From NCBI RefSeq assembly GCF_026342405.1, contig NZ_JAPEMU010000001.1:124001-188000 (forward strand): a stretch of DNA of 64,000 nt, read 5' to 3'. The stretch is from Kitasatospora sp. NBC_00240 (GTDB taxonomy: Bacteria; Actinomycetota; Actinomycetes; Streptomycetales; Streptomycetaceae). Numbering within the stretch: position 1 is the first letter of the stretch; each line of letters starts with the position of its first letter. Below are positions 22,123 to 39,783 of this stretch, piece after piece. The notes beneath the pieces were generated by a model, which was given only the letters and a program-made list of their open reading frames with translations, was not told where the DNA came from and did no database searches. The position numbers were made by a program, and so were the translations under genes.

Positions 22123-23241
22123 TCACCCCCGGTCGGCCGGGACCGCCGGGTGCTGCCAGAGCCCCCGGGCCGCGAGCAGCGGCAGGACGCCCTCGCCCAC
22201 CTGGTAGGCCTCCTCCAGGTGCGGGATGCCGGAGAGGATGAACTCCCGGACGCCCACCCGGTGGTACTCCCCGATCAGGTCGGCAACCTCCTGGTGGCTG
22301 CCCACCAGTGCGGTGCCGGCGCCGCCCCGCACCAGCCCGATGCCGGCCCACAGACCCGGGTGCACCTCCAACCGGTCGGTGGCGCCGCCGTGCAGCTCCC
22401 GCATCCGCCGCTGGCCGTCCGACTCGCTTCGGGCCAGGGCGAGTTGGGTACTGCGAATCCGCTCCGGGCTCATCCCGGCGAGCAGCCGTTCGGCCTCGGC
22501 CCAGGCCTGCGCGGAGGTGTCCCTGGCGATCACGTGCAGTCGGATCCCGAACCGGGGCGTGCGGCCCCGGGCCCGGGCCAGGCCGCGGATCCACTCGATC
22601 TTCTCCCGCACCTGCGCGGGGGGCTCGCCCCAGGTGAGGTACACGTCCGCGTGCCGGGCCGCGACCGCGCCGGCCGCCGTCGAGGAGCCGCCGAAGTAGA
22701 TCTCCGGCGCGGGATCCGGGCACCGGGCCAACCGGGCCTGCTCCACCCGCAGATGCTCCCCCTCGTGGTCGACGCTCTCCCCCGCCCAGAGCCGCCGGAC
22801 GATCCCGAGGAACTCGTCCGCCCGGGCGTAGCGCCCCTCCTTGTCCAGGAAGTCGCCGTAGGCGCGCTGTTCGGCCGACTCGCCGCCCGTCACCACGTTG
22901 AGCAGCAGCCGGCCGTGGGACTGGCGCTGGTAGCTGGCCGCCATCTGGGCGGCCAGGGTGGGGCTCAGCTGTCCCGGGCGGAAGGCGACCAGGAACTTGA
23001 GCCGCTCGGTGACCTGGGTGAGCATGGCCGTGGTCAGCCAGGCGTCCTCGCACCAGACGCCGGTGGGGGTCAGCGCGCCGGCGAAGCCGAGCTGCTCGGC
23101 CGTCCGGGCGATCTGGCCGAGGTATTCGATGCTCGGGGGGCGGTCGGCGCCCGCCGTGCCGGGCGTCGACCCGTGGCCGCCGCCGACCACGTGGCGACTG
23201 TCGCCGGTGGTGGGCAGGAACCAGTGGAAGGTCAGGGACAT
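22123..23241 (-). CDS. ssuD: Alkanesulfonate monooxygenase, FMNH2-dependent
   Basis: This 372-residue luciferase-like enzyme is a full match to SsuD, which releases sulfite from C1-C10 sulfonates using reduced FMN. Hallmarks are PTGVWCEDAWL, FLVAFRPG, LLNVVTGG, YLTWGEPPAQV, RFGIRLHVIARD, GLVRGGAGTALVG and IPHLEEAYQVGE. The ATG has AGGAG upstream. It lies 84 bp behind a flavin reductase that can supply FMNH2, and these two appear to be a separate transcription unit from the larger cluster, after a strong hairpin at 23971-24007. No SsuABC transporter is adjacent; the nearby transporter is of the peptide type. Confidence 0.93.
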   Translation of the reverse strand: MSLTFHWFLPTTGDSRHVVGGGHGSTPGTAGADRPPSIEYLGQIARTAEQLGFAGALTPTGVWCEDAWLTTAMLTQVTERLKFLVAFRPGQLSPTLAAQMAASYQRQSHGRLLLNVVTGGESAEQRAYGDFLDKEGRYARADEFLGIVRRLWAGESVDHEGEHLRVEQARLARCPDPAPEIYFGGSSTAAGAVAARHADVYLTWGEPPAQVREKIEWIRGLARARGRTPRFGIRLHVIARDTSAQAWAEAERLLAGMSPERIRSTQLALARSESDGQRRMRELHGGATDRLEVHPGLWAGIGLVRGGAGTALVGSHQEVADLIGEYHRVGVREFILSGIPHLEEAYQVGEGVLPLLAARGLWQHPAVPADRG

Positions 23242-23325
23242 GGGGACTCCTGGGACGGGCGGCGGGCGGCTGTGCGGGCCGCGTGGAGGTGCCGGGCGGT
23301 GGCTCCGGCACCGGACGGGGCCGGG

Positions 23326-23871
23326 TCAGCTCCGGTGGGCACCGGCGCCCGGGGCGGACGTGAACCCGCCGAAGGCGCCGTCGTGGTGCACCAGCGGGCC
23401 GACGTCCTCCCGCGCCAGGGTGTCGACGACCTCACCGACCACCATCAGGTGGTCGCCGACCTCCTGGAGCAGCACCGGACGCGCCGTCAGCCAGGCGGCG
23501 ACCCCGGCCAGGACGGGCGTGCCCAGCTCGTCGGGCGTCCAGTCGGTGCCGGCGAAGCGGTCGACGCCGCTGCGGGCGAACCGGGCCGCCAGCGCCTCCT
23601 GGCCCCGGCCGAGGATGTGCACGGCGAAGCTGCCGGCCGCCCGGACGGCCGGGGCCGCCGAGGCGGTGGCCGACACGTAGAAGGACACCAGGGCCGGGTC
23701 CAGGCTGACCGAGGTGAAGGAGGTGGCGGTGAACCCGGCGGGGCCCGGCACGGTGATGACGGTGACGCCCGCGGCCTGCCGGCGCAGGGTGCGGCGCAGC
23801 CGGTCGGCCGGTAGGGGTACCGGGCCGGTCGGCCTGAGCTGGGTAACGGGGAGGTCCTGGGTGATGGTCAC
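23326..23871 (-). CDS. Flavin reductase (FMN/NAD(P)H), partner of monooxygenases
   Basis: A 181-residue split-barrel flavin reductase with GVTVITVPGPAGFTATSFTS near residue 35 and FAVHILGRGQ near residue 83. It should reduce free FMN for SsuD-type enzymes. It is not homologous to E. coli SsuE but plays the same part in many actinomycete loci. The start is a GTG with AAGGA upstream. It precedes ssuD on the same strand. Confidence 0.88.
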   Translation of the reverse strand: MTITQDLPVTQLRPTGPVPLPADRLRRTLRRQAAGVTVITVPGPAGFTATSFTSVSLDPALVSFYVSATASAAPAVRAAGSFAVHILGRGQEALAARFARSGVDRFAGTDWTPDELGTPVLAGVAAWLTARPVLLQEVGDHLMVVGEVVDTLAREDVGPLVHHDGAFGGFTSAPGAGAHRS

Positions 23872-23970
23872 GGGGATTTCCTTCCGGGGAGGCGAGTCGG
23901 CGCTACGGCGGTCGGGCCTGCATCGGTCGGGCGGCGGGCTCGCGGGCGGTGCCGGGGGTGACCGGCGGGA

Positions 23971-24007
23971 CGGGTCCGGTCCGAACCGTCCGGACGGACC
24001 GGACCCG
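23971..24007 (-). terminator. Strong hairpin ending the large sulfur operon
   Basis: CGGGTCCGGTCCG (23971-23983) pairs perfectly with CGGACCGGACCCG (23995-24007) over 13 bp around an 11-base loop. It lies 27 bp after the hydrolase stop and before the flavin reductase start, so it probably separates two transcription units. Confidence 0.8.
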
Positions 24008-24033
24008 TCCCGGCGGTGCGGGCGGAACGGACC

Positions 24034-24948
24034 TCAGCGGGGCGGTTCCTCGACCGTGAGCAGGCGGGGCAGGTCCGGGCCGCCGCGCAGGCGCTCCAGC
24101 CACTGGACGAGCTGCGCCGCGACGCTGCGGTGGGTGGCGTCGTTGAGCACGTCGTGCCGGCCGTCCTCGACCAGCACCAGGACGGCGGCGGGCAGGCGCG
24201 CGGCGAACTCGCGGACGGCCTGCGGCGGGGCGACGGGGTCGGCCGCGCCGTGCAGGACCAGGACGGGCAGCCGTCCGGGCGACGCCGGGGGCGGCCCGTC
24301 CTCCCCGAGCGGCGCCGGGGCCACGGCCGGCGCCGGGTTCAGCGCCGGGTTCAGGGCCGGGTTCAGGGCCGGGTTCAGGGCCGGGTTCAGCGCCGGAGCG
24401 AGCAGCGCGTCCGGGACGCGGTCCGCGAAGCGGCCCCGGCCGAACGCCGGATCGGCCGTCAGCACACCGCGGTGGGCCGGGCAGGACGTCCGGGCCGCCA
24501 GCTCCTCCTCCCAGCCGTCGGGCGCCGGGGCGCCGGCCGTCAGCGGCAGCGCGGCGAGCACCAGACCGTCCGGCCGTGTCCCGGCCTCCCGGGCGGCGGC
24601 CAGCGCCCGCAGGGCGCCGGTGTCCGACCCGGCCAGCACCACGGGTGCCGGGGCCTGCCGGGCGACGGCCGCGAAGGCCGCCGTCACGTCGGCGGGCGCC
24701 GGGTCCGGGCCGAGGCCGAGCGCGTGGACGCCGTAGCCGTCAGCGGCCAGCCGGCGGCCGAACCGCTGGTAGACGGCCGGGTTCTCGCCCCGGCCGGGGA
24801 GCAGCACCACGGTGCCGCGCCGGGCGGCGCCCTCGGCGGGCTCCCAGACGAGCGTGCCGGGCTGCGAGTCGGGGGCGGCGGCCGCCGGGGCGGGGGCGAG
24901 CGGGGCCGGGGCGGGGGCGAGCGGGGCCGGCGCGAGGTGGGCGCTCAT
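24034..24948 (-). CDS. Alpha/beta hydrolase with tandem ALNP linker
   Basis: A 304-residue alpha/beta hydrolase. After a proline/alanine-rich N-terminus it shows the oxyanion strand TVVLLPGRGENP, a degenerate elbow LAGSDTGAL, and a late Asp/His pair in LHGAADPVAPP and EDGRHDVLND. The elbow lacks the classic GxSxG because the position before the turn is GSD, so activity may depend on an unusual nucleophile. Between cap and core lie five ALNP repeats from a 12-bp tandem repeat. It is coupled by ATGA to the upstream monooxygenase gene, so it probably acts on the product or substrate of the sulfur pathway, for example a thioester or S-ester. The substrate is unknown. Confidence 0.75.
   Translation of the reverse strand: MSAHLAPAPLAPAPAPLAPAPAAAAPDSQPGTLVWEPAEGAARRGTVVLLPGRGENPAVYQRFGRRLAADGYGVHALGLGPDPAPADVTAAFAAVARQAPAPVVLAGSDTGALRALAAAREAGTRPDGLVLAALPLTAGAPAPDGWEEELAARTSCPAHRGVLTADPAFGRGRFADRVPDALLAPALNPALNPALNPALNPALNPAPAVAPAPLGEDGPPPASPGRLPVLVLHGAADPVAPPQAVREFAARLPAAVLVLVEDGRHDVLNDATHRSVAAQLVQWLERLRGGPDLPRLLTVEEPPR
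24333..24402. repeat. Tandem 12-bp repeat inside the hydrolase gene
   Basis: The unit GCCGGGTTCAGG, with minor changes, is repeated about five times and encodes successive Ala-Leu-Asn-Pro units. The length keeps frame. Confidence 0.85.
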
Positions 24949-26114
24949 CGGGCGCTCCCGGCGGTGACCGGGGCGGCCAGCCGGGCGGCGGCCTCGCGGG
25001 CCGCCTCGGTGCGCTCGCGCCGAGCGACCTCCTGGCGGACCAGCGGCAGCAGGTGGCGACCGTAGTCCAGCGCGTCCTCAAGCGGGTCGTAGCCGCGGAT
25101 CAGCAGGGTGCTGACGCCGATGTCGACGTAGTCGAGCAGGGCCTGCGCGACCGTTTCGGGGGTGCCCACCAGCGCGGTCGAGTTGCCCGCGGCGCCGGTC
25201 GCGGCGGCCGGGGCGGTCCACAGGGCGCGGTCGTGCCGGTCGGCCTTGGCGGCGGCCGCGAGCAGCCGCTGCGAGCCGGCGTTCTGCGGCCGGGCGTCGG
25301 GCCCGACCGGGAGGATCGCACGCTTGCCCACGAAGGAGCCGCCGCCCCGGCCGCGGTTCTGGATGGTGTCCAGGATGCCGTGGGCCCGCTCCCAGGCCTC
25401 CTCCTCGGTGCGGCCCAGGATCGGCCGGAAGGAGACGCTGATCCGGGGCGGCGTGCTGCGCCCGGCGGCCTCGGCGCCGGCCCGGACGGCCGCGATCTGC
25501 TCGGCCGTCTCGGCGAGCGGCTCGCCCCAGAGCGCGAAGACGTCCGCGTGCTTGCCGCCGACCCGGTAGGCCGCCTCGGACGACCCGCCGAAGTAGAGCG
25601 GGATGCGCGGCTGCTGGACGGGCCGGACCTCGGCGTGGAAGTCCTCCAGCCGGTAGTGCGGGCCCTGGTGGTCGAACGGGCCCTCACTGGTCCAGGCCTT
25701 GGTGAGGACGTCCAGGTAGTCGTCGCTGCGGTCGTAGCGCTCGTCCTTGGGGAGGTAGTCGCCGTCCCGGCGCTGCTCGGCGTCGTGGCCCCCGGTGATG
25801 ATGTGGACGGCGACCCGGCCGCCGGAGAACTGGTCCAGGGTGGCGAAGGTACGGGCCGCCAGGGTGGGGGCGACGAAGCCCGGCCGGTGCGCGACCAGCA
25901 GGCCCAGACGTTCGGTGTGGGCGGCCACGTGGGCGGCGACCTGGCTGCCGTCCGGGCTGGAGGAGCCGTAGCCGATCAGGATCCGGTCGAAGCCGGCCTC
26001 CTCGTGGGCCTTGGCGAAGCGCCGGGTGAAGTCGGGGTCGACGACCGGACCGGTGGCGGGGCGGGTCTCGGAGACGTCGGTGGTGCCGATCATGCCGATG
26101 AACTCGACGGGCAT
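24945..26114 (-). CDS. SsuD-like FMN-dependent monooxygenase (LLM class), copy 1
   Basis: A 389-residue luciferase-fold enzyme starting MPVEFIGMIGTTD. It shares with SsuD the segments [50 protein letters not shown] and FALWGEPLAETAEQI, but it has a longer C-terminal part (AAGNSTALVGTPETVAQALL) and is a different subgroup. Such enzymes use FMNH2 and oxygen to cleave C-S bonds in sulfonates, sulfones or related compounds. The stop overlaps the hydrolase start (ATGA). It is closely similar to the enzyme at 29835-30926; together they flank the molybdoenzyme and SfnB-like genes. The substrate is unknown. Confidence 0.88.
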   Translation of the reverse strand: MPVEFIGMIGTTDVSETRPATGPVVDPDFTRRFAKAHEEAGFDRILIGYGSSSPDGSQVAAHVAAHTERLGLLVAHRPGFVAPTLAARTFATLDQFSGGRVAVHIITGGHDAEQRRDGDYLPKDERYDRSDDYLDVLTKAWTSEGPFDHQGPHYRLEDFHAEVRPVQQPRIPLYFGGSSEAAYRVGGKHADVFALWGEPLAETAEQIAAVRAGAEAAGRSTPPRISVSFRPILGRTEEEAWERAHGILDTIQNRGRGGGSFVGKRAILPVGPDARPQNAGSQRLLAAAAKADRHDRALWTAPAAATGAAGNSTALVGTPETVAQALLDYVDIGVSTLLIRGYDPLEDALDYGRHLLPLVRQEVARRERTEAAREAAARLAAPVTAGSAR

Positions 26115-26176
26115 GGTGTCAGGGCCTTTCGTACGGTGGCTCGGGAGAACTCGGTGGTGACGGTGGGGTGGTGCGG

Positions 26177-27442
26177 TCAGGAGCGGGTGCGCAGCAGGGC
26201 TCGCTGCCCGGCGGCGAGCAGGACGGTGTCGTCCTGCGGGGTGTGGATGCGGCTGCAGAGCACGTTGCGCAGGTGGCGCTGGAGCGGGTTGTCGTAGGTG
26301 AGCGCGTTGTTGCCGATCAGGGCGACGGCCTGTTCGACCGCGCCGATCGCGGCCCGGGTGCCGAGCACCTTGGCGCCGGCGGCCTCCTCGGCGGCGGCCG
26401 GCTCGCCCGCGTCGACGGCCCGCGCCAGGGCGGTCACCAGCCGTTCGGCGCCGGCCAGCGTCACCTCGATCTCGCCGACGGCGCTCTGGAAGCGCGGCAG
26501 GCTCGCCAGCGGCGCACCGAGCGCGGTGGGGACCCGCTCGTGCAGGAAGCCGGTCAGCCATTCCAGGGCGGTCCGGGCCACGCCGAGGTAGAGGGCGGTG
26601 AGCCCGAGCGAGTTCCAGGCCCCGGCCGCCGTGTCCCGGCCGCCGTCCGCGCCGGGCCGGGCGAGACCGGCGACGTGCCCGTACGGGACACGGACGGCGT
26701 CGAGCAGCACGTCGTCGCTGCGGCTGGCGCGTAGGCCGAGGTGGTTCCAGGTCCGCTCGACGGTCAGGCCCGGAGTGTCGGAGCGGACCAGGAAGCTGCC
26801 GACACGGGGTTCGGGCTCGTCGGTGCGGGCCCAGACCAGCATCCAGCGCAGGGCCTCCGCACCGGTGGAGAAGATCTTGCGGCCGGTCAGCTCCCAGTGG
26901 TCGCCGTGGCGGCGGGCGACGGTCGCGGGCAGTCCGCCGCGTACGGGGGTACCCAGATCGGGCTCCACCCGCAACGCGTTGACCAGGGCGGGCCGCTCGG
27001 CGGACTCGGCGAGCAGCTCCGCGTACACCTCGGCGGGCCAGTGCGGGGTGCGGGCCTCGGCGGCGTGGGTGAACAGGGTCATCGCGGTGACCAGGGCCAC
27101 CGCCGGGTCGCCCGCGCCGAGGGCGCCGAGGATCCGGACGGTGTCGGCGAGCCGGCTGCCGGGGCCGCCGGAGCGGGCGCCGACGGTGGCGGTGAGCAGC
27201 CCGGCCCGGTGCACGGCCTCGATGCCCCGGTAGGGGAAGGAGGCTTCGCGGTCGTGTTCCTCCGCGTGCGCGGCGAGGGCGGCGGTGACGGCCGGCAGCC
27301 CGTCGAGGTCGGGGGCGGGGAGGACCGGAAGAGCGGAGGGGATGGACGGAACGGACGGGACGGGCGGGACCAGCGAGACGGGCGGGGCGGGCGGGTGCGG
27401 GGCCCCTTGCTGGATCAGCTGCTGGGTCGGTTGCTGGGTCAT
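26177..27442 (-). CDS. SfnB-like sulfur acquisition oxidoreductase (acyl-CoA dehydrogenase fold)
   Basis: A 421-residue acyl-CoA-dehydrogenase-fold flavoprotein after a proline-rich N-terminus of ~45 residues. It has the FMN/FAD domain features HWELTGRKIFSTGAEALRW and an ALIGNNALTYDNPLQRHLRNVLCS segment. The usual catalytic glutamate of fatty-acid dehydrogenases is not evident. This branch includes DszC and SfnB, flavin-dependent monooxygenases of sulfides, sulfoxides or sulfones in sulfur-scavenging operons. Its ATG shares one base with the stop of the molybdoenzyme gene (TGATG), so it is translationally coupled. The role is inferred from family and cluster. Confidence 0.8.
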   Translation of the reverse strand: MTQQPTQQLIQQGAPHPPAPPVSLVPPVPSVPSIPSALPVLPAPDLDGLPAVTAALAAHAEEHDREASFPYRGIEAVHRAGLLTATVGARSGGPGSRLADTVRILGALGAGDPAVALVTAMTLFTHAAEARTPHWPAEVYAELLAESAERPALVNALRVEPDLGTPVRGGLPATVARRHGDHWELTGRKIFSTGAEALRWMLVWARTDEPEPRVGSFLVRSDTPGLTVERTWNHLGLRASRSDDVLLDAVRVPYGHVAGLARPGADGGRDTAAGAWNSLGLTALYLGVARTALEWLTGFLHERVPTALGAPLASLPRFQSAVGEIEVTLAGAERLVTALARAVDAGEPAAAEEAAGAKVLGTRAAIGAVEQAVALIGNNALTYDNPLQRHLRNVLCSRIHTPQDDTVLLAAGQRALLRTRS

Positions 27443-29838
27443 CAGGGGGCTTTCGGGTCGGTGGGCGGCTCGGTGGGCGGCTCGGCGGGGGCTGCCGGTG
27501 CGGTGGGCGCGGCGGTGCGCCGGACGAAGGCGGGCGGGGTGCGGACGGTGACCGGGGGCGGCTCGCCGTCGCTCCATCGTTCGAGCTGGACCAGGGCGTG
27601 CTGGCCGACACAGCCCTGGGAGAGCCGCGAGCTGGGCAGGTCGGCGGTCAGCACGTTGGGGTTTCCGTGGGCGCAGAGCGGCGGCTCCACCCCGGGGACG
27701 GGGTCGAACCAGGCGCCGGTGGGCAGCCGGACGACCCCGGGGCGGACCCGCTCGGTGAGCCGGGCGCCGGCCAGGCAGGCACCGCGGTCGTTGAAGATCC
27801 GGACCAACTCACCCTCCCGGATGCCCCGTTCGTCGGCGTCGGTCGGGTGCAGCTCGACCGCCTCCCGGCCGGCGACCTTGGCCGCCAGGCTGACGGCACC
27901 GGTGTCGAGCTGGCTGTGCAGCCGGGTGGCCGGCTGGTTGGCGATCAGCAGCAGCGGGTGCCGTCCGGCGGCCGGCCCGCCGAGCCGCTCCTCGGGCTCC
28001 AGCCAGCTCGGGTGGCCCGGGCAGTCCGGCAGGCCCATCGCCGCGATCGTGGCCGAGGCGAGTTCGATCCGGCCGCTGGGGGTACCCAAGGGAAAGCGTC
28101 GTGGGTCCGCTCTGAACTTCTCGAACAGGGTGAACTCCGATGGCTCTGCAGGCAGTTGCCACTCCCCCGCCGACCAGAACTCGTCGAAGGCGGGCGGCTG
28201 CGCGCGGCCGGAGGCGGTCAGCTCGGCCGCCCATTCGGCGTACAGATGCTCCAGCCAGCGGCGCGGGGTGCGCCCCTCGGTGAAGCGTTCGCCGAAGCCG
28301 AGCCGCCCGGCGAGGGCGGCCAGCACGGCATGGTCGTCACGGGCCTCGCCGACCGGGTCGACGGCGCGGTGCATGGCGATCAGGTGGGTGTCGCGGCGGC
28401 CGCCGCCGAAGTCCTCGCGTTCCAGGGTGGTGGTGACGGGCAGCACGATGTCGGCGTGCCGGGCGGTGGCGGTCCAGTGCGGTTCGTGGACGATGACGGT
28501 GTCGGGGCGGGCGAAGGCGCGGCGGAGCCGGCCGAGGTCCTGGTGGTGGTGGAAGGGGTTGCCGCCGGCCCAGTGGACCAGCCGGATGTCGGGGTAGGTG
28601 TACCGGGCGCCGTCGTAGTCGAACTGCTCGCCGGGGTGCAGCAGCAGGTCGGCGATCCGGGCGCAGGGGATGAAGTCCTGGACGGGGTTGGGCTCCTGGG
28701 GCAGGAACGGCAGCCGCAGCCGCGGTCCCGTGTCGCCGACGTCGCCCATCGATCCGTAGCCGTGGCCGAAGCCGCCGCCCGGCAGGCCGATCTGGCCGAG
28801 CACGGCGGCCAGCGCCAGCCCGGCCCAGACCGGCTGCTCGCCGTACCGGGCGCGCTGCAGCGACCAGGTGACGGTGACCAGGGTGCGGGTGGCGGCCATC
28901 CGGCGGGCCAGGGCGCGGATCCGGCCCGGCTCGATCCCGCAGATCGCGGCCGCCCAGTCGGCATCCTTGACGACGCCGTCAGGCCCGCCGTGCAGGTAGT
29001 CGGCCAGGGTGTCGAAGCCGGTGGTGCAGGCGTCGAGGAAGGCGCGGTCGTGCAGCCCTTCGCTGACCAGGGTGTGGGTGAGGGCCAGCATCAGCGCGGT
29101 GTCGGTGGCCGGGGCGACCGGGTACCAGTCGGTGGCGGGCCCCTCGGGCAGGTCCTCCCGCAGCGGGCTGACCAAGGCCACCTCGACGCCACGGGCGGCG
29201 AGTTCGGCGAGGTGCCCGGGGGTACCGTGCCGGGTGACGCCGCCCGGGGTGACGTAGACGTTCTTGGCGGGGATACCGCCGAAGGCGACGATCAGGCGGC
29301 TGTGCCCGGTGATGGTGGGCCAGGAGGACGCGGCGCGCAGCACCGTCTCGGCGTCACCGACCAGGTGCGGCAGCAGCACCAGCGAGGTGCCCAGGCTGTA
29401 GGAATTCCGGGAGCCGGTGTACCCGCCGAACTGGCCTAGGAAGCGGTGCAGTTGGCTCTGCGCATGATGGAACCGCCCAGCACTGGCCCAACCGTAGGAA
29501 CCGCCGAAAACCGCCCGGTTGCCGTGCTCAAGGCGGACCCGGTCGAGTTCGGCGGCCACCAGGTCCAACGCGTGCTCCCACTCCACCTCGACGAACGGCT
29601 CCGCGCCGCGCGCGGTCGAGGGCCCGGGGCCGTGCTCCAGCCAGCCCTGCCGGACCGCCGGACGGCGGACCCGGGTCGGGTGGTCGAGCGCGCCGGCCAC
29701 CCCGCCGAGCAGCGGGGACGGGGAGGGGTCGGCGGGGTGCGGCAGCACCTCGACGCCGCCCCTCGCACCGGGGCGGACACCGAAGGCGCCCCAGTGCGAG
29801 GTGGTGGGCGAGGTCCGGGGTGGGAGGACGGAGGTCAT
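27442..29838 (-). CDS. BisC/DMSO-reductase-type molybdopterin oxidoreductase
   Basis: A 798-residue bis-MGD molybdoenzyme. It opens with SHWGAFGVRPG and has GGSYGWASAGRFHHAQSQ near residue 115, whose serine fits the molybdenum ligand of the BisC/TorA/DMSO reductase group. Later cofactor loops include VHWAGGNPFHHHQDL and LPVTTTLEREDFGG. There is no Tat signal and no 4Fe-4S Cys motif, so it is a soluble cytoplasmic S- or N-oxide reductase like biotin sulfoxide reductase. In this operon it probably reduces a sulfoxide, or keeps a sulfur intermediate reduced. ATGA overlap with the upstream monooxygenase and TGATG overlap with the SfnB-like gene show tight coupling. Confidence 0.88.
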   Translation of the reverse strand: MTSVLPPRTSPTTSHWGAFGVRPGARGGVEVLPHPADPSPSPLLGGVAGALDHPTRVRRPAVRQGWLEHGPGPSTARGAEPFVEVEWEHALDLVAAELDRVRLEHGNRAVFGGSYGWASAGRFHHAQSQLHRFLGQFGGYTGSRNSYSLGTSLVLLPHLVGDAETVLRAASSWPTITGHSRLIVAFGGIPAKNVYVTPGGVTRHGTPGHLAELAARGVEVALVSPLREDLPEGPATDWYPVAPATDTALMLALTHTLVSEGLHDRAFLDACTTGFDTLADYLHGGPDGVVKDADWAAAICGIEPGRIRALARRMAATRTLVTVTWSLQRARYGEQPVWAGLALAAVLGQIGLPGGGFGHGYGSMGDVGDTGPRLRLPFLPQEPNPVQDFIPCARIADLLLHPGEQFDYDGARYTYPDIRLVHWAGGNPFHHHQDLGRLRRAFARPDTVIVHEPHWTATARHADIVLPVTTTLEREDFGGGRRDTHLIAMHRAVDPVGEARDDHAVLAALAGRLGFGERFTEGRTPRRWLEHLYAEWAAELTASGRAQPPAFDEFWSAGEWQLPAEPSEFTLFEKFRADPRRFPLGTPSGRIELASATIAAMGLPDCPGHPSWLEPEERLGGPAAGRHPLLLIANQPATRLHSQLDTGAVSLAAKVAGREAVELHPTDADERGIREGELVRIFNDRGACLAGARLTERVRPGVVRLPTGAWFDPVPGVEPPLCAHGNPNVLTADLPSSRLSQGCVGQHALVQLERWSDGEPPPVTVRTPPAFVRRTAAPTAPAAPAEPPTEPPTDPKAP

Positions 29839-30926: not shown

Positions 30927-31010
30927 GACGGTACTCCAGACGTGGGTCGGTGAAGGGGGTGGTGTGACGAGGTACGGGTGGCGGCGGCCGCCGAGGGCGC
31001 GGGGCGGGCC

Positions 31011-33199: not shown

Positions 33200-34112
33200 C
33201 GGCCTGCTCCTTCGGTGCGGGCTGCTCGGACGGGCCGGCGCGGTGGGGACGTACGGCCCTGGCGGTGGCGGCGCCGCGGGCCCTGGCCGGTTCGGTCCCG
33301 GCCGCCCCGGCGTCGCGGACGGCGTCGGCGAGCAGGTTGAGCGCGCCGACGGTGAGCATGATCAGGGTGGCCGGCAGGATCGGGGCCCAGGGCTGCTGGG
33401 CGAGGAAGCCCAGGTCGCTGGCGAGCATGCCGCCCCAGGTCGGGGCCGGCGGCTGGACACCGACGCCGAGGAAGGTCAGCGAGGTGACCGTCAGCAGGGC
33501 GGTGGCCAGCGCGTGGGCGGTGGTGACGGCGACGGTCGGCAGGATCTTGGACCACAGGTGGGTCCGCAGGATCCAGCGGCGCGAGGCGCCCATCAGCTCG
33601 GCCGCCTGCACGTACTGGGCCTGGGTGAAGCCCAGTGCCGCGGCCCGGGTGACCCGGAAGAACAGCGGTGAGAGCAGCACCCCGAGGGCGAGCATCGCCT
33701 GGTGCAGGCCGTTGCCGAAGACTCCGACCGCGGCGATCGCGAAGAGCGTGAACGGCAGGGTCATCAGGGCGTCCACCGCCCGCAGCGACACCCACTCGAA
33801 GACCCGGCCGAGCCAGAGCGAGGCGATTCCCGGGACGATGCCGAGCAGCATCGCCGCCGCCACCGCCTCCACCGCGCCGGCCACCGATTCGCCGGTGCCG
33901 GCGAGCAGCCGGCTGAGCACGTCGCGTCCCAGGTAGTCGGTGCCGAGCAGGTGCGCGCCGCCGGGGGCGCCGAGCAGCTGGGCGGTGTCCTGGGCGAGCG
34001 GGTCCTGCGGGGCGAGGGCGCCGCCGAACAGGGCGAGCAGGGCGACGGCGGCGAGCACCGGCAGGGCGATCCGGGCGGTCCGCAGCCGCAGCGTGCGGCG
34101 GATCGTTCTCAT
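33180..34112 (-). CDS. ABC transporter permease, OppC/DppC type
   Basis: A 310-residue inner-membrane permease with about six transmembrane segments, the N-terminal OppC domain (PLAQDTAQLLGAPG, then HLLGTDYLGRDVLSRL) and the cytoplasmic coupling loop (EAA motif) around YVQAAELMGASRRWILRTHL. Its ATG overlaps the stop of the partner permease gene (ATGA at 34109-34112). The C-terminus is a charged soluble tail. Confidence 0.93.
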   Translation of the reverse strand: MRTIRRTLRLRTARIALPVLAAVALLALFGGALAPQDPLAQDTAQLLGAPGGAHLLGTDYLGRDVLSRLLAGTGESVAGAVEAVAAAMLLGIVPGIASLWLGRVFEWVSLRAVDALMTLPFTLFAIAAVGVFGNGLHQAMLALGVLLSPLFFRVTRAAALGFTQAQYVQAAELMGASRRWILRTHLWSKILPTVAVTTAHALATALLTVTSLTFLGVGVQPPAPTWGGMLASDLGFLAQQPWAPILPATLIMLTVGALNLLADAVRDAGAAGTEPARARGAATARAVRPHRAGPSEQPAPKEQADAPLPA

Positions 34113-35161
34113 GGCTGACTCCCTTGCCGGGGGCGGGCCTTGGCGGCCCGGCGGGCGGCCGGGTTGAGGGCGAGCAGGCCGGCGTCGACGGCGAGGTTGG
34201 CGATCAGCACGACGGCGACGGTGACCAGCAGGGTGCCCTGGATGACGGGGACGTCGTGCTGCTGGGCGGCCTGCAGGGAGAGCTGGGCGATGCCCGGCAG
34301 GTTGAAGATCCGCTCGGTGACCACCGCGCCGCCGATCAGCATCGGCACGCTCATCCCGAGGACGGTGACGGCCGGGCCGGCGGCGTTGCGCAGGACGTGG
34401 CCGAAGAGCACCCGCCGGGCGGGCAGGCCGCGCATCACGGCGCCGGTCACGTAGTTCTCGCGCAGCGCGCCGACCAACGAGGTGCGCAGCTGCCGGGCGA
34501 TGCCGGCCGCCGCGTCCAGGCTCAGGGCGAGGGCCGGCAGGACGGCGAACCGCAGCCACTGGCCCGGGTCCTGGCCGAACGGGACGTATCCGCCGGAGGG
34601 CAGCAGCCCGGCCTGCACGGAGAGCACGGCGATCAGGCCGATGGCGATCACGAAGGCGGGCAGGGTGCCCAGCACCGAGCAGATGCCGGTGATCGCCAGG
34701 TCGAGCCGGCCGCCGTTGCTGCGGGCGGCGGCGATGCCGGCGGCGCCGCCGAGCAGGACGGCGAACAGCAGGGCGAGGCCGGCGATCGACAGGTCGACGG
34801 GCAGCGCGGCGGCGATGCTGTCGGCCACCGGCAGGGTGGTGAACCAGGAGTGGCCGAGGTCGCCGCCGAGGGCGTGCCCGAGCCAGCTGGTGAACTGCTC
34901 GGCGAGCGGCCGGTCGAGCCCGAACTCGTGGTTCATCCGGGCGATGTCGGCCGGCGTGGCGGTCTCGCCGAGGACGGCGGCGCCGGGGTTGGCCTCGGAG
35001 AGTGCGCCCAGGCCGAAGGTGATCAGGGAGGAGATCAGGAAGACGGTGGCGGTGGTCAGCAGGGCCCGGGCCGGGCCGCGCGGCGCCCGCGCGGCCCGGG
35101 CGGCGAGCACCCGGCCCCGCCCGCCCTGGCGGGCGGGCGCGGGCGCGAGGAGCGCTGTCAC
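34109..35161 (-). CDS. ABC transporter permease, OppB/DppB type
   Basis: A 350-residue permease with about six transmembrane segments, the typical NHEFGLDRPLAEQFTSWLG segment and the coupling loop ENYVTGAVMRGLPARRVLFG. The start is a GTG at 35161 that overlaps the binding-protein stop as GTGA. Its N-terminal ~45 residues are Arg/Ala-rich and cytoplasmic. Confidence 0.92.
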   Translation of the reverse strand: MTALLAPAPARQGGRGRVLAARAARAPRGPARALLTTATVFLISSLITFGLGALSEANPGAAVLGETATPADIARMNHEFGLDRPLAEQFTSWLGHALGGDLGHSWFTTLPVADSIAAALPVDLSIAGLALLFAVLLGGAAGIAAARSNGGRLDLAITGICSVLGTLPAFVIAIGLIAVLSVQAGLLPSGGYVPFGQDPGQWLRFAVLPALALSLDAAAGIARQLRTSLVGALRENYVTGAVMRGLPARRVLFGHVLRNAAGPAVTVLGMSVPMLIGGAVVTERIFNLPGIAQLSLQAAQQHDVPVIQGTLLVTVAVVLIANLAVDAGLLALNPAARRAAKARPRQGSQP

Positions 35162-36708
35162 GGCGCGGTCACCCCCTCGAAGCGCTGGACGACGGTGAAC
35201 TCGGGGATGGCGGAGACGGTCTTCTGCCGGGCCAGGATCCGCGGCACGCTGTAGAGGAAGATGTTGGGCATGGTGCGCACCGCGAGGGCCGTGGCGGCCT
35301 GGAGGTTCTTCGGGTAGTCGGGCGAGTCGAGCGGGGTCCGGGAGACCAGGTCGACGGCGGCCTTGAGCTCGGGCGGCGTGCTGCGGCCGGGGTTCATCAG
35401 CCCCTGCTCGCCGAAGAGCACCTGGAAGGCCTGCGGCGCGGAGTCGCGGCCGGCGAACTGGTCGGTGAACAGGGCCCGGGAGTGCTGGATGTAGATGATC
35501 TGGGTCGCCTGGGCGGCCGGGATGACCTCGATGGTGGTCTTGATCCCGACCTCCTTCAGCTGGGCCTGGAGCTGCTCGGGCAGGCCCTGTGCGGCGGTGG
35601 TGGTGATGGTCAGCTCCACCCCGTCCGGGTGCCCGGCCTGGGCGAGCAGTTCCTTGGCCTTGGCCGGGTCGTGCGGGAAGAGGTCGGCGGAGCCGGCGTC
35701 GTACCCGACGTAGCCCTTGGGGAAGGGCTGGTAGCTGACGTCGCCGAAGCCGAACTGCTGGGTCTTGAGCAGGGCTTCGCGGTCGATCGCGTACTTGAGG
35801 GCCTGCACCACCAGCGGGTTGTCGAAGGGTGCCTTGGTGGGGTTGATGTCGAGCACCGCGACCACCAGGGACGGGATGACCTGGACCTCCAGGCCGGCGG
35901 CCTTGGCGGCGGCCACCTGGCTGCCGGGGATCTGGGCGACGTTGTACTGGCCCGACTGCAGGGCGGCGACGACGGTGGAGGCGTCGGGCAGCGGGTAGAT
36001 CTCGAAGTCGTCGAGCTTGATGCTCGACGCGTCCCAGTAGCCGGGGTTGCGCTTCAGCACGGCCTTGGCGTTCTGGGTGTAGGAGCTGAGCGTGAACGGC
36101 CCGGCGCCGACCGGGCGGGAGGCGAGGCCGGCCGCGTCCCCCTCGAAGGCCTTCGGGCTGACGATCATTCCGGTCTTGCCCGCCAGCAGGTTCGGCAGCT
36201 GGTAGTCGGCCTGGGTGAGCGTCAGCACCACGGTCTGGGGGTCGGGTGCGGCGACGTCCTTGATGTGCACCAGCTGTGGGGCGACCAGCGACTTGGGGTC
36301 GGTGCGGCCGCGGTCCAGGCTCTTCTTCACCGCGGTCGCGTCGAGCGGCGTGCCGTCGCTGAAGCTCAGGCCGTCGCGGAGCTTGAAGGTGACGGCGGTG
36401 CCGTCCGGGCTGTACGTCCAGCCGGTGGCGAGGGCGGGGACGGCGTCGCCCTTCTCGTTCAGCTTGGTGAGGCCGGCGTAGACCAGTGAGAGGTCGTGGA
36501 CGTCCCAGCCCGCCGAGGAGAACACCGGGTCCCATGAAGTGGGCAGCGCCCAGCCCCACTTGACGGTGCCACCGGCCGCATCGCCGGCCGTGACGGGAGC
36601 GCCTGAGCCGCAGGCGGCGAGGGCGAGGGTCGCCGCGGTGCCCAGCGCGAGGCCGAGGAAGGAGCGTCTGGCAAGGGTCGAACGGGTGCTGCTGACGGGG
36701 GCGTTCAT
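35158..36708 (-). CDS. Lipoprotein substrate-binding component (peptide/nickel-type ABC)
   Basis: A 516-residue solute-binding protein of the OppA/DppA class. It has a twin-arginine sequence (ARRSFLGLA) followed by a lipobox ending at Cys33 (LALAACGS), so it is probably Tat-exported and lipid-anchored. Family segments include WTYSPDGTAVTFKLRDGLSFSDGTP (split here by residue ~105) and AIDREALLK. In sulfur loci such transporters carry sulfur compounds, not peptides. It is the first structural gene after the leader peptide, with AAAGGTGA before the ATG, and the last base of its frame couples to the permease. Confidence 0.9.
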   Translation of the reverse strand: MNAPVSSTRSTLARRSFLGLALGTAATLALAACGSGAPVTAGDAAGGTVKWGWALPTSWDPVFSSAGWDVHDLSLVYAGLTKLNEKGDAVPALATGWTYSPDGTAVTFKLRDGLSFSDGTPLDATAVKKSLDRGRTDPKSLVAPQLVHIKDVAAPDPQTVVLTLTQADYQLPNLLAGKTGMIVSPKAFEGDAAGLASRPVGAGPFTLSSYTQNAKAVLKRNPGYWDASSIKLDDFEIYPLPDASTVVAALQSGQYNVAQIPGSQVAAAKAAGLEVQVIPSLVVAVLDINPTKAPFDNPLVVQALKYAIDREALLKTQQFGFGDVSYQPFPKGYVGYDAGSADLFPHDPAKAKELLAQAGHPDGVELTITTTAAQGLPEQLQAQLKEVGIKTTIEVIPAAQATQIIYIQHSRALFTDQFAGRDSAPQAFQVLFGEQGLMNPGRSTPPELKAAVDLVSRTPLDSPDYPKNLQAATALAVRTMPNIFLYSVPRILARQKTVSAIPEFTVVQRFEGVTAP

Positions 36709-37078
36709 GATGCTGCGTCACCTTTCGGGTGCACGCCGGACCGGCCCTTGTCGGGGGCGGCCGGGCAGTGCAAGGGGCGCCGCGTCGGGGCGGGCCGACG
36801 GCGCTGGAGGGCAGGACGGGGTGTGCCGGGACAGGGCGCCCGGAATCAGGGTGTGCCGGGACGGGCCGCGGGACGGCAGAGCCGTCCGGGCCAGGAGGGG
36901 CGGACCGATGGTTGCGGGCAGGAGCCGACGGCTCTGGGAGCCCGGAACAAGGGGGTTTCGGCCCGGCACAGGGGCAACGGGCGCGGCCGGTCAGGCCTGA
37001 CGGGGTGCGGCCGGGGCGACGGTCGGACCGTCGGGGGCCGTGGATCGGCAGGTGTGGTGGCGGCCGGGGGGCGCTGGG
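36709..37078 (-). promoter_or_regulatory. Leader/attenuator region between the leader peptide and the binding protein
   Basis: These ~370 transcribed bases contain no gene but several inverted repeats: CGACGGTC-G-GACCGTCG at 37017-37033, the 12-bp palindrome GTCAGGCCTGAC at 36990-37001, and GAGCCGACGGCTC near 36926. They may form the alternative structures of an attenuator coupled to translation of the Cys-ending leader. I cannot decide the pairing by eye. Confidence 0.5.
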
Positions 37079-37153
37079 TCAGCGACAGAGAGCGCTGCTG
37101 GTGCGCCGGAAGTCCACGAAGCGGCACACCACACCGGGGTGCGTCGAAAGCAT
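37079..37153 (-). CDS. 24-residue Cys-ending leader peptide
   Basis: A short frame of 24 codons begins at 37153 and ends in VDFRRTSSALCR, the signature of the leader peptides (V-D-L/F-x-R-x-x-S-A-L-C) found before sulfur genes in streptomycetes. It has cysteines at residues 10 and 23. The ATG is the predicted transcription start (see the promoter entry), so the message is probably leaderless. Ribosome stalling at the Cys codons when cysteine is low would report sulfur status to the downstream ABC/monooxygenase operon. The mechanism is inference from family and position. Confidence 0.82.
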   Translation of the reverse strand: MLSTHPGVVCRFVDFRRTSSALCR

Positions 37154-37159
37154 GCGCTC

Positions 37160-37206
37160 ATCCTGTCCGGGCCGCGCCGCCCTGTCAATGGACACCAAAC
37201 GGTGTC
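37160..37206 (-). promoter_or_regulatory. Promoter and palindromic operator of the sulfur operon
   Basis: On the minus strand, TTGACA (37183-37188) and CAGGAT (37160-37165) are 17 bp apart, and the leader ATG lies seven bases past the -10 box. Two bases upstream of the -35 box is a perfect palindrome GACACC-AAAC-GGTGTC (37191-37206). Its position just before the -35 box suits an activator, or a repressor that blocks polymerase. Confidence 0.72.
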
Positions 37207-37287
37207 TCATTCGTCGGACCGTCAGCCCCTCCCGAACCCGCCGGTCAGGCCCGTCGGAGGCCACCGCCGCCGGCCCCGCCCACTCGC

Positions 37288-38247
37288 TCAGCGGCCCCGT
37301 GACCGGTCGGTGGCGAACGCCGGGTGCCGCTCCGCGTACGCCGGGTGGAGCCACAGCGGGCCGTTCCCGCTCTCCAGGCGAACGGCGCGGGTGGGCGGGC
37401 GGCGGTCCGCCGTCAGCAGGTCCAGGTCGGCGCGGGTCAGGCTCAGATGGCGCTCCAGCGCCGCGTCCGGGTCGAGCAGCCCGCCCTCGGGCCGCAGTCG
37501 CAGCTGCGGGGCGACCGCCCGTACCGCCTCCAGGTACTCCCCCAGCGGTCGCCAGCCGGGCACCACCCGACGGCCGGCCGGCCCGACGAGGAGCAGGGTC
37601 GGCAGCGCGTAGCGGTACCCGTCGCCGGCCTCCTTGGCCGCGCCCGGGTGGGGCGGCGGACCGCGCAGGCCGAGCACCTCGGGCACCGGCGCGCGCGCCT
37701 CGGCACGGTCGGCCGCCAGCCGCTCCAGCGTCCGGCGATCCGTCATGTCGGCCAGCAACGACTCCTCGTCGAGACCGGGCAGGCCGGCGACGGCGGTACG
37801 CACCCGGTCGGTGCTGTCGGCCGGCTCGCCCAGTACGAAGACGCTCTCCCGGAGCCGGCGCAGCACCGCCGCCGCCACCGCCGGGCCCTGGCGCCGCGCC
37901 GCGACGGCGGCCAGCGAGGCCGGGCGACTGCAGGCCGCCACCCGGGCGAGCCGGACGGCGTGCGGGGCGCCGGTGTGGGCGCTGATCTCCGCGACGTAGC
38001 GGGCGTACCAGGCCGTCTCGGCGGCCGGGTCGGGCGCCGGGTCGTCCTCCTCCTCGTCGAAGAGCATCCCGTAGGCCGGCCGCCAGACGGCCCGGCCCGC
38101 CAACAGGGCGCGCAGCCTGCGGAGTTTGGGTTCGGAGCCCCAGGCCCAGGGACAGAGCGGGTCGGTGTACTCCACCACCTCCAGCCCGCCGGCGGGTTCG
38201 GCGGCGGGTGGCTCGGGGGCGCCCGGCCCGGCGGAGGCGGCGGTCAT
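37288..38247 (-). CDS. DsbA-fold thiol oxidoreductase (FrnE/HCCA isomerase-like)
   Basis: A 319-residue DsbA-family protein with active-site segment TDPLCPWAWGSEPK at residues 28-41. Only the first cysteine of a CxxC is present (CPWA), as in isomerase-like or kappa-GST-like members, so it may bind glutathione-like or other thiols and not make disulfides. There is no signal peptide, so it is cytosolic. Its ATG overlaps the Rrf2 stop (ATGA), so regulator and thiol protein are made together, which points to thiol or redox sensing. The ligand is unknown. Confidence 0.82.
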   Translation of the reverse strand: MTAASAGPGAPEPPAAEPAGGLEVVEYTDPLCPWAWGSEPKLRRLRALLAGRAVWRPAYGMLFDEEEDDPAPDPAAETAWYARYVAEISAHTGAPHAVRLARVAACSRPASLAAVAARRQGPAVAAAVLRRLRESVFVLGEPADSTDRVRTAVAGLPGLDEESLLADMTDRRTLERLAADRAEARAPVPEVLGLRGPPPHPGAAKEAGDGYRYALPTLLLVGPAGRRVVPGWRPLGEYLEAVRAVAPQLRLRPEGGLLDPDAALERHLSLTRADLDLLTADRRPPTRAVRLESGNGPLWLHPAYAERHPAFATDRSRGR

Positions 38248-38726
38248 ACCAGGACGTCCGCCCGCTGCCGGACGGAGGGCGTGCCGGGCTGGGCCGGGCC
38301 GGGTGCGGAGCCACCGGAGGGGGCCCCGACGAGGGCGGAGACGGTGACCCGGCCGAGGATCGCGGCGGCGCTGTCCTCGACCGCGCGCCAGACGTCCGGC
38401 AGGCCCTGCGCCGGTGCGGGGTAGTCGAGTTGGTCCAGCGGTTCGCCGCGCAGGGTCATCAGCCCGCCGTCGACCGCGCGCATCACGTCGAGCAGGCTGA
38501 TCTCCTCGGCGGGCCGGCCGAGCCAGTACCCGCCCTCGCAGCCGCGCTGGCTGCGCACCAGCCCGGCCCGGCGCAGGTCGCCGACGACGGACTTCAGGAA
38601 GCGGAACGGAATCTCCTGGGACGAGGCGATGCTCTCGCAGGTGAGCGGACGGGCCGTGTCGCGGGCGAGTTCGACCAGGGCCCGCGCGGCGTAGTCCGCC
38701 TTCGCGGAAATATGCATGTGCACCAT
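38244..38726 (-). CDS. Rrf2-family transcriptional regulator
   Basis: A 160-residue Rrf2 protein: winged helix in ISAKADYAARALVELAR and SQEIPFRFLKSVVGDLRRAGLV, wing RSQRGCEGGYWLGRP, and a dimerisation helix. The three-cysteine iron-sulfur set of IscR is absent; only Cys30 and the cysteine of RGCEGGY remain. It may therefore respond to a small molecule or protein, as CymR does with cysteine synthase. GAGAGGGG precedes the ATG. Rrf2 proteins control sulfur genes in several bacteria, and this one sits between the two leader-peptide units, making it the best local candidate for their regulator. Confidence 0.88.
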   Translation of the reverse strand: MVHMHISAKADYAARALVELARDTARPLTCESIASSQEIPFRFLKSVVGDLRRAGLVRSQRGCEGGYWLGRPAEEISLLDVMRAVDGGLMTLRGEPLDQLDYPAPAQGLPDVWRAVEDSAAAILGRVTVSALVGAPSGGSAPGPAQPGTPSVRQRADVLV

Positions 38727-38887
38727 TATCCCCTCTCAGGTCGCCGACACCAGGCCTTTCGGTCACGGACGGCCCTGCACCGGAGCGGCAGGAGGCGCCC
38801 TGACCAGGGCGCCGGCCGGGCGGCGACAGGCGTGAAATCCGCGCGCGGGCGTCGGCCGGGGCGGGCGGCGCAGGCATTGGACACCTC

Positions 38888-38917
38888 TTGACATCCTTTC
38901 GGCCACAGCCCTAGCGT
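38888..38917 (+). promoter_or_regulatory. Promoter of the second leader peptide/cupin unit
   Basis: TTGACA (38888-38893) and TAGCGT (38912-38917) are 18 bp apart, and the leader ATG at 38925 lies eight bases past the -10 box, so the message is probably leaderless. GGACACC (38879-38885) sits two bases upstream of the -35 box, matching one half of the palindrome at the other leader promoter. Confidence 0.7.
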
Positions 38918-38924
38918 CCTGTCC

Positions 38925-39005
38925 ATGCCCCACCGTGTCCCGCTCCGCGCCGCGCACCGCGCCGACTGTCCGTCGGCGCCGTCCGCGCTCTGTCGCGCCA
39001 GCTGA
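38925..39005 (+). CDS. 26-residue leader peptide with SALC motif
   Basis: A 26-codon frame starting MPHRVPLRAAHRAD and ending APSALCRAS. The SALCR end is the same as in the leader before the sulfur operon, and cysteines lie at residues 15 and 23. Promoter layout is also the same. It precedes the cupin gene by 184 bp of GC-rich DNA able to form hairpins. It is likely a cis-acting attenuation peptide responding to cysteine supply. Confidence 0.72.
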   Translation: MPHRVPLRAAHRADCPSAPSALCRAS

Positions 39006-39189
39006 AGGACACCGCCGCCCGGGCGGGCCGCCCGCCGCCCGACCCGCGCCCGCCGGCGCCCCGCCACCCGGATCCCCACCGGGCGCTGCCGACGTCCCCG
39101 ATCCCGTTCGGCCCCTCAGGATGTCGCAGGTCCGCCCGCCTCAGCGCGCCCTCTCCCGCCCGCACGCCTTCTCCCGTACAAGGAACGTC

Positions 39190-39783
39190 ATGAGCCCAGC
39201 AGCGCACCCGCACCCCGACTCCGACTCCAGCCCCGAGGCCGGTGACAGCGCCCACCCGCACAGCCACGCCGAGAGCCCGGGCGCCCGCCCCGTCACCGAG
39301 GCCGGCGCCGGGTTCCACCCGCACCTGCCCGACCGCCAGGCCCCGGCCGCCCCGCTGGCGGCCCGGCTGCACCACATCCGGGCCGGCGCACTGGACGGGG
39401 ACACCGCGCAGACCGGCGGGATGCGGAGGTTCGCGGCCGTCAGCGGCCAGACGGTGGGATCGGAGAAGCTCTGGATGGGCCAGACCCATGTCGCACCCGC
39501 CACCTCGTCCTCCGACCACCACCACGGCGAGTCCGAGACCGCGATCTACGTGGTGAGCGGGCATCCGGTCTTCGTCTTCGCGGACGCCTCCGCCGGCGAG
39601 CCGGAGGAGGTGCGCCTGGAGACCGGCCCGGGTGACTACATCTTCGTCCCGCCGTTCGTCCCGCACCGCGAGGAGAACCCGGACCCGGACGTGGAGGCCG
39701 TGGTGGTGATCGCACGCAGCACCCAGGAGGCGATCGTGGTCAACCTTCCGAGCCTGTACCCCGCCGGCGGGGACGATAACTGA
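39190..39783 (+). CDS. Cupin-domain metalloprotein
   Basis: A 197-residue protein. The first ~55 residues are His/Pro/Ser-rich, then a single cupin barrel follows. Cupin motif 1 is in DHHHGESETAIYVVSG, with three histidines and a glutamate able to bind iron or another metal, and motif 2 is in GPGDYIFVPPFVPHREENP. The ATG has AAGGA upstream. Lying behind a Cys-type leader peptide, it is probably made under sulfur limitation. It could be a dioxygenase acting on a thiol or sulfinate, but the sequence alone does not prove this. Confidence 0.82.
   Translation: MSPAAHPHPDSDSSPEAGDSAHPHSHAESPGARPVTEAGAGFHPHLPDRQAPAAPLAARLHHIRAGALDGDTAQTGGMRRFAAVSGQTVGSEKLWMGQTHVAPATSSSDHHHGESETAIYVVSGHPVFVFADASAGEPEEVRLETGPGDYIFVPPFVPHREENPDPDVEAVVVIARSTQEAIVVNLPSLYPAGGDDN

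Follow-up and report, generated by a model that had tools for sequence, protein, structure and literature searches.

A conserved Kitasatospora operon, very probably for organosulfur scavenging, that combines several flavin-dependent monooxygenases with an optional BisC-family molybdoenzyme

Organisation and conservation of the operon

The window analysed here is a stretch of 64,000 nucleotides from Kitasatospora sp. NBC_00240 (positions 124,001-188,000 of contig NZ_JAPEMU010000001.1; genome size 10.4 Mb), and it contains an operon of 14 genes, all on the minus strand, that, judged from its sequence, very probably serves organosulfur scavenging. In the order of transcription, the operon encodes an Rrf2-family regulator, a DsbA-like protein, a leader open reading frame (ORF), the substrate-binding lipoprotein, permeases (OppB, OppC) and ATPases (OppD, OppF) of an ATP-binding cassette (ABC) importer, the luciferase-like monooxygenase (LLM) LLM1, a BisC-family molybdoenzyme, a flavoenzyme of the acyl-CoA dehydrogenase fold (ACAD), LLM2, an alpha/beta hydrolase, a flavin reductase and LLM3. 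The part from importer to LLM3 spans positions 22123-36708, and profile searches placed all families named in the original prediction for this locus on the minus strand within these borders. The span given there, 22123..39783, had to be redrawn: the segment 38935-39783, where a plus-strand cupin ORF lies, was rejected as part of the operon, and the real unit runs on upstream to the Rrf2 gene, up to position 38726, thereby including the regulator, the DsbA-like gene and the regulatory leader, which the prediction lacked. The statement that most genes overlap by ATGA was overstated as well. Seven of the 11 junctions between the lipoprotein gene and LLM3 overlap, five by four bases (one of these with a GTG start) and two by 20 and 1 base, and the other four are gaps of 84, 62, 162 and 84 bases; a further four-base ATGA overlap joins the Rrf2 and DsbA-like genes.

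The nearest named relatives are Kitasatospora species, with ACAD matches of 90% identity in K. indigofera and 90-91% in K. herbaricolor. When 394 genomes of the family were scanned with ACAD, 104 of them had a match at E 1e-60. From these, we assembled a set of 31 loci, consisting of the window and 30 regions whose ACAD is at least 67% identical; genome G458 with a partial ACAD (74%) and the K. indigofera locus L007, the single locus with ACAD from the genome-contig scan, were left out, L007 because its contig equals that of L066 in length. As the search for the same gene set suggested in the original prediction revealed, the other 30 Streptomycetaceae loci have their genes in the same sequence, apart from optional genes, a swap of LLM3 and flavin reductase and contig ends, and the gene set is therefore not a chance arrangement. 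The importer, ACAD and LLM2 are present in all 31 loci (with a frame-split ACAD in L069), the regulator and the DsbA-like protein in 30, and the hydrolase and flavin reductase in 29, the missing copies being due to contig ends (L078, L081). LLM1 was found in 17 of the 31 loci and LLM3 in 19, five of the latter being only 55-57% identical and swapped in order with the flavin reductase; the contigs of L078 and L081 end ahead of the LLM3 position. BisC is intact in 13 loci, reduced to a remnant or broken in frame in three (L074, L079, L092) and absent from 15. Thus, BisC, LLM1 and LLM3 are optional and the remaining genes form the core. A hidden Markov model (HMM) scan of the loci counted 28 flavin reductases and 30 OppF proteins, each one below the synteny table; the OppF, ACAD and LLM3 frames used were partly over-extended, and the BisC profile also included frames that are still open in the three decayed copies. 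On an ACAD tree of 30 rows, from which L069 was left out and in which longer sequences were cut to the last 425 residues, the distribution of intact BisC requires at least six changes and that of LLM1 at least five; a first tree including L069 gave seven changes. Outside these loci, the operon was also found on an Embleya plasmid, where LLM1 and LLM3 are present and BisC is absent, and its palindrome type and leader are the same as those described below.

Two of the three LLMs lack the sulfonate-binding arginines

The three LLMs (LLM1, 29835..30926, PF00296; LLM2, 24945..26114, PF00296; LLM3, 22123..23241) all score best against SsuD models, above the NtaA/DmoA models. LLM3 reaches 442.5 bits with TIGR03565 (cut-off 518), and LLM1 is a paralog of LLM2 with 58% identity. 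Against the SfnG model, which was sought among the operon LLMs only, they reach 125-160 bits at a cut-off of 382.95. We applied a residue test based on W195, R225 and R296 in MsuD numbering, as given in the available part of PMC8234197, where sulfite production by the variants R225A, R296A and W195A is reported as not measurable. LLM3 keeps the full W/R/H/R sulfonate set in 19 of 19 loci. In LLM1 and LLM2, the tryptophan is kept, and both arginines are replaced in every ortholog examined, by S and T in LLM1 (17/17) and by S and T or S in LLM2 (31/31), i.e. R225 by S and R296 by T or S in 48 of 48 sequences. By this test, LLM1 and LLM2 are not sulfonate enzymes, and of the three monooxygenases originally described as SsuD or SsuD-like only LLM3 keeps the site. 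The same replacement extends to the 120 LLM2 homologues listed (P0121-P0240), where R225 is S in all 120 and R296 is T in 110, S in nine and V in one. Many LLM2-type proteins are named 'alkanesulfonate monooxygenase' and lack these residues, and they probably do something other than sulfonate cleavage. The gene between the hydrolase and LLM3 codes for the flavin reductase (23326..23871; PF01613, 124 bits).

The ACAD-fold enzyme and its core partners

The core partner of LLM2 is the ACAD (26177..27442), a predicted group D S-monooxygenase. The best structural match of its model is a flavin-containing monooxygenase. It reaches 108.7 bits with the SfnB family TIGR04022 (cut-off 430.9), is 26% identical to annotated SfnB, and scores 25.6 bits with the DszC model (cut-off 850). 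According to the accessible portion of PMC13352529, Dms1-3, which are ACAD-fold group D enzymes as well, oxidise dimethyl sulfide (DMS) and dimethyl sulfoxide (DMSO) together with a partner FMN reductase. At other ACAD paralogs (L096, L097, L099, L100), an LLM neighbour was absent in the HMM scan.

The importer has the composition of the peptide/nickel/Opp class, with an SBP_bac_5 substrate-binding protein, two BPD permeases and two ATPases with oligo_HPY domains. The lipoprotein (35158..36708; PF00496, 255 bits) carries the lipobox LAAC, and its best NCBIfam model is GsiB (173 bits, cut-off 594). It is followed by OppB (34109..35161; PF00528, PF19300), OppC (33180..34112; PF00528), OppD (32111..33199; PF00005, PF08352) and OppF (31011..32114; PF00005, PF08352). 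A paralog of LLM2 in the same genome (58% identity; L157, G000:C1:3843000-3862900) lies beside SBP_bac_3 proteins and a permease; a transposase-like ORF is also found close by. Since the importer is of the peptide type and this paralog adjoins an amino-acid-type ABC importer, our guess for the substrate is an S-substituted amino acid or small peptide. Two further core proteins are the alpha/beta hydrolase (24034..24948; PF12146, PF12697) and the DsbA-like thioredoxin-fold protein (37288..38247), which has a single-cysteine CPWAW motif and matches PF13743/PF01323 weakly, albeit above cut-off.

The BisC-family molybdoenzyme

The optional molybdoenzyme (27442..29838; PF00384, PF01568, PF18364) belongs to the BisC/DMSO reductase family by its molybdopterin and dinucleotide-binding domains and by the Tyr, Trp and Ser positions of the active site in an alignment with DMSO reductase. 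Its score with the NCBIfam model TIGR00509 (bisC_fam) is 908.4 bits, under the curated cut-off of 1017.55, and a signal peptide is not evident in its sequence. The active-site motifs GGSYGW and YS are kept in all 13 intact copies, and in all 13 operons BisC directly precedes the ACAD. In L074, L079 and L092, bisC is decayed and the other core genes are retained, a sign of the loss of a reductive step. BisC-family genes are generally uncommon, being found at E 1e-150 in 14 of 396 genomes sampled from the phylum and in 13 of 70 genomes of the genus. Nine of the 13 from the genus are close to the copy in the window (at least 77% identity over most of the length), one (G567) is the broken one and three are distant.

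An obligatory role of BisC is thus rejected: the oxidative core also exists in loci that have no reductase, and BisC is likely an accessory whose loss is under way in some of them. The original proposal that reduction of an S-oxide is a step of the pathway was thus not borne out in its general form.

Regulatory elements upstream of the importer

The Rrf2-family regulator (38244..38726) reaches 103.6 bits with PF02082 and 101.7 bits with TIGR00738 (cut-off 73.3), so that the superfamily cut-off is exceeded; its best equivalog, CymR (NF047409), stays at 68.5 bits under a cut-off of 195. The protein has two conserved cysteines and is without the three-cysteine motif of the IscR cluster. Upstream of the importer, at 37191..37206, lies a perfect palindrome, GACACC-GTTT-GGTGTC, a predicted regulator site that recurs as GACACC-N4-GGTGTC in 29 of the 31 loci and is directly followed by CATTGACA. 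TTGACA abuts the palindrome in all 29 of these loci, and by eye we read a predicted promoter (37160..37188) with TTGACA, a 17-base spacer and CAGGAT ahead of the leader ATG; a simple promoter-terminator scan for sigma-70 signals found nothing, this promoter not being among its output.

The leader ORF (37079..37153) encodes the peptide MLSTHPGVVCRFVDFRRTSSALCR, and its ATG is located 53-54 bases from the start of the palindrome in most loci. A peptide of the type M-x-x-THP-x-VVCR-Y/F-VD-x-x-RTSSALCR, or a close variant, is present in 28 of the 31 loci, including L089, where the palindrome went unmatched; it is diverged in L076 and L077, and the contig of L078 ends earlier. Over residues 11-23 the leader matches NF042934 ('putative leader peptide', actinobacterial cis-regulatory) with 14.8 bits (cut-off 27). 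A search of the genome with its strict C-terminal codon pattern gave this locus as the single match. The palindrome with one mismatch occurs at 38 places in the genome compared to 26 for a reversed control, and therefore no regulon was drawn. The conserved leader peptide suggests cysteine-responsive attenuation; together with the Rrf2 protein, for which CymR is the best equivalog though below threshold, it points to a control by cysteine or sulfur. The regulator would bind the palindrome, and the operon would likely be switched on when cysteine or sulfur is short.

Related clusters on plasmids and in Proteobacteria

ACAD-LLM2 neighbours with one-permease importers occur in Proteobacteria (Pseudoroseomonas, Bradyrhizobium, Paracoccus, Pararhizobium, Rhizobium and Haematobacter). 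On five alphaproteobacterial plasmids (L146, L160, L163, L164, L165), the ACAD-LLM2 pair and one-permease importer are followed by YcnI/DUF1775 and CopD/CopC-type (copper) genes. On a Comamonadaceae plasmid, a relative of the ACAD adjoins genes for cysteine dioxygenase and a rhodanese as well as ssu genes.

A larger part of the gene set was found on three Rhizobium plasmids and a Neorhizobium plasmid, which encode a DsbA/HCCA-isomerase-like protein, an FAD-linked oxidase, BisC, a peptide-type importer, an LLM2-like protein (48-50% identity), an ACAD (44-46%) and an FMN reductase; one of these rhizobial clusters, from Rhizobium, lies near sfnB, sfnG and msuE. A Pseudonocardia plasmid has a similar gene set, in which BisC is divided between two frames, and the ACADs of the rhizobial and Pseudonocardia clusters are 44-51% identical to that of the operon. 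A BLAST match between the rhizobial DsbA-like proteins and that of the window was not found; the former have SPW near the N-terminus, compared to CPW in the latter. These clusters also differ from the operon in the extra FAD-linked oxidase and in that their BisC comes from other branches of the family, and they have in common with it BisC, the peptide-type importer, the LLM2-like protein and the ACAD, the rhizobial ones also the DsbA/HCCA-isomerase-like protein and the FMN reductase. The oxidase (L136, L137, L139, L140, L147) is of the FAD-linked D-lactate type, and the Neorhizobium cluster additionally encodes a 3-mercaptopyruvate sulfurtransferase, together hinting at a 2-hydroxy or 2-oxo acid as the carbon part of the substrate there. 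Next to the BisC-ACAD-LLM cluster of the Pseudonocardia plasmid (L137, 22683-28367), we observed genes for a rhodanese, another LLM, a hydroxyethylthiazole kinase and an ABC importer, suggesting salvage of thiazole or thiamine sulfur.

In a BisC tree of 43 rows, quickly built and with several long rows, the operon copies form one clade. A single clade uniting them with the rhizobial and Pseudonocardia copies, the latter represented by their longer piece only, was rejected in the approximately unbiased (AU) test (p 0.00012). This suggests that BisC joined the ACAD-LLM2-importer clusters, or was replaced in them, more than once; separate recruitment and replacement would both explain the result. 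The pairing of an oxide reductase with several monooxygenases, called unusual in the original prediction, is so in the sense that 0 of 19 other actinobacterial BisC loci had a strong ACAD or LLM match (weak ones in L122-L124 and L134), but it is also present on the Rhizobium, Neorhizobium and Pseudonocardia plasmids. None of the titles among the literature matches listed describes the gene set.

Comparison with known sulfur pathways

The operon is a variant of the sulfur-scavenging islands of the sfn/msu/dsz kind. It resembles the sfn/msu pathway of Pseudomonas and Acinetobacter (SfnG, MsuC, MsuD/SsuD, MsuE, Dms1-3) in its predicted use of two-component FMNH2 monooxygenases. In that pathway, as far as described in the available parts of PMC8234197 and PMC13352529, an ACAD-fold S-oxygenase, SsuD-like enzymes and a common flavin reductase act in series to free sulfite. 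The operon differs from it in that all its LLMs remain under the SfnG cut-off and its ACAD well under the SfnB cut-off, and by the peptide-type importer, BisC, alpha/beta hydrolase, DsbA-like protein, Rrf2 regulator and leader peptide. The 4S desulfurization pathway consists of DszC, DszA, DszB and DszD. The operon differs from this system by the low DszC score of its ACAD and by the importer and BisC, and its genes are without a desulfinase assignment, although an ACAD-fold desulfinase is among the weak matches of the ACAD. With the Ssu alkanesulfonate system it shares an SsuD-like enzyme with full sulfonate site, LLM3, and an adjoining flavin reductase, whereas its importer is of the peptide type and not SsuABC, and LLM1 and LLM2 are without equivalents of R225 and R296. 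Known BisC is cytoplasmic. The BisC of the operon resembles BisC, MtsZ and the DMSO reductases as a member of the molybdenum S/N-oxide reductase family, with GGSYGW and YS motifs and no evident signal peptide, but it is set among oxygenases and scores below the bisC_fam cut-off.

Proposed pathway and alternatives

That the operon scavenges organosulfur, as originally predicted, agrees with the sulfonate site of LLM3, the leader and Rrf2 regulator, the ACAD-LLM2 relatives near sfnB, sfnG and msuE, and the ACAD relative next to cysteine dioxygenase, rhodanese and ssu genes. Starting from what was computed directly, i.e. the gene set and its order, the palindrome, the leader, the division into core and optional genes, the decayed copies of bisC and the arginines missing from LLM1 and LLM2, we propose a pathway that we hold tentatively, giving it slightly less than an even chance. 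The importer would bring in an organic molecule bearing a thioether or sulfoxide, and the flavin reductase would supply FMNH2 to all monooxygenases. The ACAD would oxygenate the sulfur, by analogy to the ACAD-fold enzymes Dms1-3, and LLM2, helped by LLM1, would cleave the C-S bond in an intermediate that is not a sulfonate. Where present, LLM3 may convert the resulting sulfonate to sulfite, and the hydrolase and DsbA-like protein may process the carbon part or a thiol. BisC would be an optional adaptor: it would reduce sulfoxide forms to the thioether, the entry point of the core pathway, and the whole would be controlled by shortage of cysteine or sulfur.

One alternative concerns the role of BisC. 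It could instead perform housekeeping repair of free methionine sulfoxide or biotin sulfoxide within a sulfur-starvation operon, sharing no substrate with ACAD and LLM2, the route itself being purely oxidative, from thioether via sulfone and sulfinate or sulfonate to sulfite. The dispensability of BisC, intact in 13 of 31 loci and decayed in three while the rest of the operon stays, fits this idea, as do the substrates of known BisC and MtsZ enzymes, which are free methionine sulfoxide and biotin sulfoxide in the accessible text of PMC5122715. Nevertheless, we regard it as rather unlikely, with BisC placed directly before ACAD in 13 of 13 intact cases and other BisC lineages present in the rhizobial ACAD-LLM2-importer clusters. 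In addition, BisC was found in 0 of 12 loci of the ACAD-LLM2 type that do not belong to the peptide-importer group (L098, L101, L144-L146, L160-L166). This sample is small and its members are related; on the opposite strand of L144 there is a peptide-type importer, and the neighbourhoods of L161 and L162 are not typical. For at least 12 of the 40 plasmid ACAD matches listed, a BisC is also listed at a distance of up to about 11 kb; such counts are biased, as three of the four rhizobial regions were chosen by their BisC. Specificity of the association is weakened by six other plasmid BisC regions (L138, L141, L142, L143, L148, L149), in which ACAD is absent by annotation, although L141 and L142 have a peptide-type importer or solute-binding gene near BisC and L149 has LLM genes.

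A second alternative concerns the chemistry of LLM1 and LLM2. The enzymes DmoA and CmoJ release a thiol from a thioether by hydroxylating the carbon adjacent to sulfur. If LLM1 and LLM2 did likewise, they would accept the thioether only, so that BisC would be needed, and the ACAD would oxidise a later product, e.g. a sulfinate. The absence of the sulfonate arginines from LLM1 and LLM2 agrees with such a chemistry, and the single-cysteine DsbA-like protein of the core could handle thiols. Precedents in the part of PMC8234197 at hand are the C-S cleaving group C enzymes DmoA, acting on dimethyl sulfide, and CmoJ, of cysteine salvage, as well as MsuC, which oxidises methanesulfinate. Yet LLM1 and LLM2 are nearest to SsuD/MsuD and not to the NtaA/DmoA family, and the ACAD-LLM2 pair is invariant even in loci without BisC, which makes this alternative unlikely. 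A use of the operon for nitrogen or carbon, with LLMs cutting C-N bonds as in the degradation of nitrilotriacetate (NTA) and EDTA, BisC reducing N-oxides and the importer taking up chelates or peptides, could draw on an importer class shared with nickel, opine-metal and peptide importers and on the S/N-oxide reductase name of the BisC family model, but is very improbable given that all three LLMs score best against SsuD and not NtaA/DmoA models, that LLM3 keeps its sulfonate site, that the leader has conserved cysteine codons and that an ACAD relative adjoins cysteine dioxygenase, rhodanese and ssu genes.

Returning to the proposal of an imported thioether or sulfoxide with BisC as adaptor, a common specificity for S-configured sulfoxides is reported for BisC, MtsZ and DorA in the available part of PMC5122715. 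One could speculate that the operon corrects the stereochemistry at sulfur and uses every oxidation state of one nutrient, and that such a reductive-oxidative cycle was assembled independently in actinobacteria and rhizobia; we consider this extension doubtful. With this operon, a pathway for an organosulfur nutrient in actinomycetes, probably under cysteine control, becomes open to experiment, and the question arises why an S-oxide reductase adjoins S-oxygenases in more than one lineage.

Other features of the window

ARAGORN reported a tRNA-Ala at 33236-33311 on the plus strand, inside oppC on the opposite strand, which is probably false and did not appear in an Rfam scan at E up to 0.5; that scan gave two matches only, both far under their gathering scores. 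Beyond the cupin ORF, a plus-strand ORF at 39900-40532 weakly matches PF10706 (24.5 bits, cut-off 21) and may be aminoglycoside 2''-adenylyltransferase-like.

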